Shown in pieces: positions 37,509-37,856 of a DNA stretch of 62,410 nucleotides; positions within the stretch are counted from its first letter, which is position 1; the number at the start of each line of letters is the position of its first letter. The DNA is taken from the NCBI GenBank assembly GCA_022447555.1, contig JAKVBF010000017.1, positions 24,132 to 86,541 of the forward strand. Direction: 5' to 3'. The DNA is from Mariniblastus sp. Its GTDB lineage: Bacteria > Planctomycetota > Planctomycetia > Pirellulales > Pirellulaceae. The notes under the pieces are model-generated. The model did no database searches, was not told the DNA's origin, and saw only the letters and a program-made list of their open reading frames with translations. Made by a program: the position numbers and the translations under genes.

Positions 37509-37856
37509 TTACCCGAAGATGCTCGTGTACATTTCTTCATTGAACCCAACGACTAACTTTTTGCCTACTTGCAAAGTCGGCGCCCGTAGGTTCCCTGTAG
37601 GGCCGAGCATGAGTTTTGCAATTTCTTCATCGCCGAGGGTTTCTTTTTTAAAATTAACGTGGACGACTTTTTTCCCTTTCGCTGCGTAAAGTTCAGAGAC
37701 TTTGTGAGCTAAGTTCAACGCTTCAGGCTTCTTCAGCGTCTCTTTTTTTGCATTGACTTCCGTTTTTATCGCTATCTGATGGTTGGCAAGAAACTCTTGC
37801 GTTTTAACGCATGTCTTTCACCCGGGGCGGTGGTAACTCCAATCTACTTTCGGCAT
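37509..37856 (-). CDS. ArsC/thioredoxin-fold selenoprotein, TGA at residue 13 read as selenocysteine
   Basis: Reading from the ATG at 37856 through one in-frame TGA at 37820-37818 gives a 115-residue protein ending in TAA. The N-terminus is MPKVDWSYHRPG, then TGA, then KTCVKTQEF: a U-x-x-C redox motif at residues 13-16. The rest, LGPTGNLRAPTLQVGKKLVVGF, matches the ArsC-family small reductases, in which relatives have Cys at the TGA position and some are known selenoproteins. An AGGTG ribosome site lies five bases before the ATG, and the frame is coherent on both sides of the TGA. A gene finder would report only a piece from a TTG at 37718. It is probably a cytoplasmic thiol/selenol oxidoreductase, not a proven arsenate reductase. 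The gene is divergent from the FabH-like gene, with about 250 bases between them. Confidence 0.85.
37790..37820 (-). promoter_or_regulatory. Candidate bacterial SECIS hairpin just after the TGA
   Basis: On the minus strand the TGA is followed within seven bases by a stem TGCGT/ACGCA with a TAAA loop, and GAAA at the TGA can pair with TTTC at the far side to extend it. Bacterial SECIS elements lie in this position, inside the coding sequence immediately 3' of the UGA. Confidence 0.5.

Follow-up and report, generated by a model that had tools for sequence, protein, structure and literature searches.

Is the TGA at the thirteenth codon of a small reading frame in Mariniblastus sp. a true stop, or is it read as selenocysteine (Sec)? 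The window analysed here is a contig stretch of 62,410 nucleotides, and it carries this frame on its minus strand at positions 37856-37509. When the TGA (37820-37818) is translated as Sec, the frame encodes a 115-residue protein that resembles ArsC and Spx proteins. The probability that this codon is read as Sec, and that the gene therefore encodes a selenoprotein, is estimated at about 95%. This estimate derives mainly from the conserved TGA, the family match of the protein and the presence of the decoding machinery.

An ArsC-family frame interrupted by TGA

The TGA is the sole interruption of the frame, which ends with a TAA at 37511-37509. An in-frame TAA lies five codons upstream of the ATG at 37856, and a ribosome-binding-like AGGTG (37866-37862, minus strand), read directly, precedes this ATG by five bases. 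Both the start codon and the well-placed AGGTG agree with the initial annotation of this DNA, which had also recognized that the TGA opens a U-x-x-C motif. This motif reads U13-K-T-C16 in the read-through protein, with Cys16, the probable resolving cysteine, encoded by TGC at 37811-37809. Ordinary gene calling had been predicted to return only a shortened fragment from 37718, and a frame of 69 aa does begin with TTG at this position. An Rfam scan of the whole window at gathering thresholds gave no match. A codon-usage scan of the window lists 15 other candidate frames for TGA read-through, although the scan is weak, giving -0.01 for the part of the true gene before its TGA.

The initial annotation had pointed to ArsC-family (seleno)proteins as relatives. 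The full read-through protein matches the NCBIfam model NF041106, 'ArsC family (seleno)protein', at 144.9 bits (E 1.2e-42), well over the curated whole-protein cut-off of 85. This match extends from residue 4 to 110 and uses positions 1-107 of a 107-position profile. Pfam ArsC is matched by residues 8-111 (35.4 bits, cut-off 24, 1.3e-08). Both matches span residue 13 and the homology therefore crosses the TGA, in keeping with the coherence that had been noted on either side of this codon. NF041106 is also matched by every one of the 25 members of A3, an alignment of relatives described below, at E values up to 0.001.

An AlphaFold2 model of the protein has a mean pLDDT of 92.9 and a pTM of 0.85. 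The attacking residue of a thioredoxin-type fold usually sits just before the first helix, and Sec13 is placed immediately before the first helix of the model (residues 14-25), as a U-x-x-C motif should be. Because of this placement, the protein is best read as a U-x-x-C oxidoreductase of the thioredoxin/ArsC/Spx fold, and a plain oxidoreductase role is quite probable.

Two other roles that retain Sec decoding deserve consideration. The protein might be an Spx-like regulator that binds RNA polymerase, with Sec13 and Cys16 forming a selenium-based redox switch. The solved structures most similar to the model are indeed Spx chains, followed by YffB and ArsC-related proteins, and PDB entries matched by sequence include Spx as well. 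However, the TM-scores of these fold matches are just about 0.5-0.56. The Spx/MgsR model TIGR01617 is the second-best NCBIfam match, but its 44.1 bits fall below a cut-off of 75.05 and three specific Spx models score far under their own cut-offs. A regulatory role of this kind is unlikely.

It is quite unlikely that the protein is an arsenate reductase with a catalytic Sec. Such a role would fit the names 'arsenate reductase' and 'arsenate reductase-like' given to the family in the inventories of PMC2398784 and PMC13188914, as well as the score over the Pfam ArsC cut-off. Against it, the read-through protein does not match TIGR00014, the model for glutaredoxin-type arsenate reductases, at E values up to 1, and only one of the 25 A3 members does so, weakly. 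The surroundings of the gene also argue against this role, since a Pfam scan of five neighbouring genes in the window reveals no arsenic gene and there is no widely conserved neighbourhood.

In the window, the gene sits between genes for a DUF819 membrane protein and a 3-oxoacyl-ACP synthase III. Open reading frames of at least 90 aa were clustered around 26 copies of the gene (L047-L071 and the window), and several of these loci end early at contig ends. Conserved neighbours were rejected as a clue to function, as no gene family recurs in more than three of the 26 copies. Within this set, the gene order of the window recurs only at L060, another locus from Mariniblastus, where the encoded protein is 75% identical. 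Flanking genes are also held in common within the pairs L063/L071 and L066/L067.

Conservation of the TGA and the selenocysteine genes of the host

Relatives of the gene occur in planctomycetes and in other phyla. When 294 Planctomycetota genomes were searched with the protein, 68 of them gave matches at 71 places. A copy with one TGA is present in 57 of these genomes, and the other 11 have stop-free matches only. The nearest kin in this sample lack a match (none of three other genomes from the same family, nor the one from the same order), and five of 16 other genomes from the same class have one, all five with Cys codons. A search of the genome_contigs collection recovered 26 loci: 17 from Planctomycetota, eight from former Deltaproteobacteria (Thermodesulfobacteriota and Myxococcota) and a single distant match from Heyndrickxia. 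A tblastn search of a plasmid collection with the protein gave no match.

Ninety-seven copies, including that of the window, were read base by base. The first batch comprised 56 copies, and the second consisted of the 41 places that had not yet been read, which are more distant. The codon aligned with position 13 is TGA in 80 copies, TGC in 13, TGT in three and GAC in one. The window's TGA is thus aligned with TGA or with one of 16 Cys codons in all copies except the one with Asp. Relatives had been expected to carry Cys at this position. This is true of those 16 copies, but the great majority have TGA instead. Frame decay in homologues had been named in advance as evidence that would count against Sec, and neither decay nor any other stop is found in the matched stretches of the 97 copies. 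Conservation of the TGA exceeds chance, and its presence as the single stop in 80 of 97 copies is the strongest evidence for Sec. It is highly improbable that the TGA is a true stop, produced by gene decay or a sequencing error and leaving at most a 69-residue piece from the TTG at 37718, because, although TGA is a stop in translation table 11 and the TTG frame is open, the TGA copies have intact flanking frames and span Planctomycetota, Thermodesulfobacteriota and Myxococcota, the short piece would lack both U13 and C16, and the genome has Sec machinery.

Some individual copies are unusual. The copy with Asp (GAC) at position 13 is L090 on contig C12 of genome G045, which also carries a TGA copy. 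In L062 (1385-1702), the motif reads U-T-S-S, such that Ser replaces the resolving Cys (U-x-x-S). This protein could be a one-thiol version, or the change could be a sequencing error. The distant copy L117 has Ala at the position of Cys16. L117 belongs to a set of distant Cys copies (L072 and L115-L118) that may be other ArsC/Spx proteins. Two loci, L018 and L058, are identical over the 48 bases after the TGA and probably represent one organism.

Cys16 is invariant in two alignments, A2 (26 rows) and A3 (25 rows), both of which are subsets picked by hand from the first 56 copies, with L062 and L072 left out. A further alignment, A1, which was built from 47 of the 48 TGA stretches in the first batch, enters into none of the counts given here. 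A tree of 55 first-batch copies (all but L072, and built before addition of any second-batch sequence) contains seven Cys rows that need five changes of state, at least three of which are forced by well-supported branches. The tree is midpoint-rooted, so the direction of change between Sec and Cys cannot be read from it.

A genome without selB or selC had likewise been named in advance as evidence against Sec, but all four genes that the initial annotation had singled out (selA, selB, selC and selD) are present above their cut-offs in the source genome, an assembly of 4.19 Mb in 62 contigs that is 97.5% complete. The tRNA-Sec scores 68.6 bits against an Rfam cut-off of 47, and ARAGORN agrees on this RNA and its TCA anticodon. 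Scores for the protein genes are 357.9 bits for selB (cut-off 242.25), 569 bits for selA (cut-off 267.9) and 273.2 bits for selD (cut-off 125). These four genes reside on separate contigs (C7, C62, C11 and C3).

The selD gene of this genome (L075:1393-3594, minus strand, contig C3) encodes a fusion protein. Its 733-residue frame begins with a Pyr_redox_2 domain (residues 33-312), which is followed by SelD-type AIRS domains (432-723). Fusions of SelD to a pyridine-nucleotide-disulphide oxidoreductase domain are known.

Across the Planctomycetota sample, the split between Sec and Cys forms largely tracks the presence of selA. This gene is found at E values below 1e-50 in 55 of the 57 genomes with a TGA copy, compared to four of the 11 with stop-free copies only (Fisher p 1.1e-5, a test that ignores kinship). 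For scale, selA scores over its cut-off in 191 of the 294 genomes. The two TGA genomes without a selA match, G264 and G173, are assemblies of 480 and 610 contigs. Among the stop-free genomes with selA, G207 and G036 have only weak matches to the protein, while G135 (L092) and G268 (L111) have a true Cys copy alongside selA. Cys forms are thus not confined to genomes that lack Sec machinery. Genome G024 was counted as lacking selA and has a weak match to it at 7.8e-4.

A SECIS-like hairpin after the TGA

Bacterial SECIS elements (bSECIS) are described in the legend to Fig. 2 of PMC13188914 as having a loop of 3-9 bases, a stem of 4-16 and a distance of 16-37 bases from the UGA. The model in PMC13188914 also places a G within the first two loop positions and sets a folding energy of -7.5 kcal/mol or lower. 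The window contains a SECIS-like hairpin with this geometry at 37800-37786 on the minus strand. Its stem has six base pairs (GCAAGA/TCTTGC) and its GTT loop, which includes the G, is separated from the TGA by 23 bases. A competing hairpin, TGCGTTAAAACGCA, occurs at 37811-37798 on the same strand. The two overlap and cannot form together. The predicted energy is -8.5 for a 42-nt stretch, but this value includes the competing hairpin, and a 36-nt stretch yields -6.1. Because the competitor forms the minimum-energy fold, the energy of the SECIS-like hairpin is ambiguous with respect to the bSECIS criterion. A stem-loop directly following the TGA had been proposed in the initial annotation. The hairpin shared with closer relatives does lie inside the range that was specified, but the predicted minimum-energy fold belongs to its competitor.

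Overall folding stability is a poor guide to SECIS elements in this family. Of 70 non-redundant TGA genes, all but three have RNA after the TGA that folds better than codon-shuffled versions (67 genes; mean z over the 70, -1.44), and in the distant TGA genes the mean z is -1.60, with 30 of 32 values below zero. However, minimum-energy z-scores had to be rejected as SECIS evidence. The first comparison gave -1.51 for 48 TGA genes versus -0.71 for eight Cys genes (p 0.12). There was still no clear separation with 70 TGA genes at -1.44 and 11 Cys genes at -1.05 (standard error 0.41), a Cys group defined without the distant stop-free copies L072 and L115-L118 and without the Asp copy. Since z-scores fail to separate TGA from Cys genes, a test for a stem at a fixed position was adopted instead.

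The hairpin registers for this test were chosen after a positional scan of the first batch, in which TGA genes share a stem whose centre is about 27 bases away from the first base of the TGA. At this fixed position, 33 of 39 non-redundant first-batch TGA genes form five or more pairs, versus a mean of 31% in shuffled sequences, and 29 of the 39 form six or more, versus 11%. None of 1000 protein-preserving sets of synonymous-codon shuffles reached the observed value at either threshold. The same stem is present in none of the eight first-batch Cys genes. The outermost pair of the stem is partly compensated, with G-C in 14 genes, T-A in five, C-G in one and non-pairs in four (n=24).

The position had been selected using first-batch genes, and the test was therefore repeated on the second batch. 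There, nine of 31 non-redundant TGA genes have the fixed-position stem at either threshold, compared to shuffle means of 9% and 6%, and none of 500 shuffled sets scored as high. No stem is found at this position in the nine second-batch copies that lack TGA. The hairpin is real among the closer relatives and some of the distant ones. It is not family-wide, as only nine of the 31 distant TGA genes have it, and the shape of the SECIS element varies. The stem is missing from the shared position in the other 22 of these genes and also in L031, L040, L042, L044, L045 and L064, six loci in whose folds the stem is either longer or displaced. Some members of the family may therefore rely on a different type of SECIS element. 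These second-batch results narrow the SECIS claim and leave the odds of Sec decoding unchanged.

The competing hairpin was considered as a conserved switch and rejected. A competing stem of at least five pairs is present in 16 of the 39 first-batch TGA genes, where shuffled sequences average 22% and one of 500 sets is as high. When the codons of the main stem are held fixed, the shuffle mean rises to 32% and 37 of 500 sets reach the observed value. None of the 31 second-batch genes has this stem. These results suggest that the competing hairpin is a by-product of conserved codons and not a feature of the family.

Proposed working and comparison with known systems

From the computed frame, family, machinery, TGA conservation, hairpin conservation among closer relatives and predicted fold, we infer Sec insertion and the following redox chemistry. 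The UGA at codon 13 would be decoded as Sec by the SelA, SelB, SelD and tRNA-Sec of the host, and the short hairpin, with its loop 23 bases past the UGA, would guide this decoding. Catalysis probably begins with attack by the Sec13 selenol on a disulfide or another oxidised substrate, after which Cys16 would resolve the intermediate, in the manner of U-x-x-C and C-x-x-C thiol oxidoreductases.

A broader proposal would make the family a sensor that is widespread in planctomycetes. A selenylsulfide between Sec13 and Cys16 could signal the redox or selenium status of the cell to RNA polymerase, as an Spx-like protein might, with repeated exchange of Sec and Cys and with Cys forms found mostly where selA is absent. 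This proposal is quite doubtful, and the plain U-x-x-C oxidoreductase is the preferred reading.

The initial annotation had implied that a selenol oxidoreductase was new here, and this novelty does not hold. A survey of Global Ocean Sampling sequences from 2008 lists 42 selenoproteins under 'Arsenate reductase 2' (cd03032, UxxC; PMC2398784). A 2026 review includes an 'Arsenate reductase-like protein' (NF041106, UxxC), for which the ocean survey is cited (PMC13188914). ArsC-like selenoproteins that may belong to this family are named in a comparison from 2006 (PMC1794560), and selenoproteins of planctomycetes have already been reported (PMC4807772). With NF041106 curated and the family present in published inventories, the gene in the window is a new example of a family that is already recognized.

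Other known proteins are less similar. Spx/MgsR proteins (TIGR01617) have the same fold and a C-x-x-C at the same position, but the window protein does not reach their curated cut-off. The glutaredoxin-type arsenate reductases (TIGR00014) belong with it to the broad Pfam ArsC family, but their model is not matched. 'Arsenate reductase 2' is likened to the window protein by its domain and motif descriptions, cd03032 and UxxC, and the string 'planctomycet' has no occurrence in the main text of that survey (PMC2398784). The closest counterpart is NF041106 itself (ArsC_rel_Se_1), with which the protein has in common a full-length match over the cut-off, the U-x-x-C motif and the existence of both Sec and Cys forms. 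Host lineage is the sole difference found. The gene thereby adds a well-supported planctomycete example to a known selenoprotein family, and the hairpin tests on two batches of relatives indicate a SECIS form that is kept among the closer members and differs in the distant ones.
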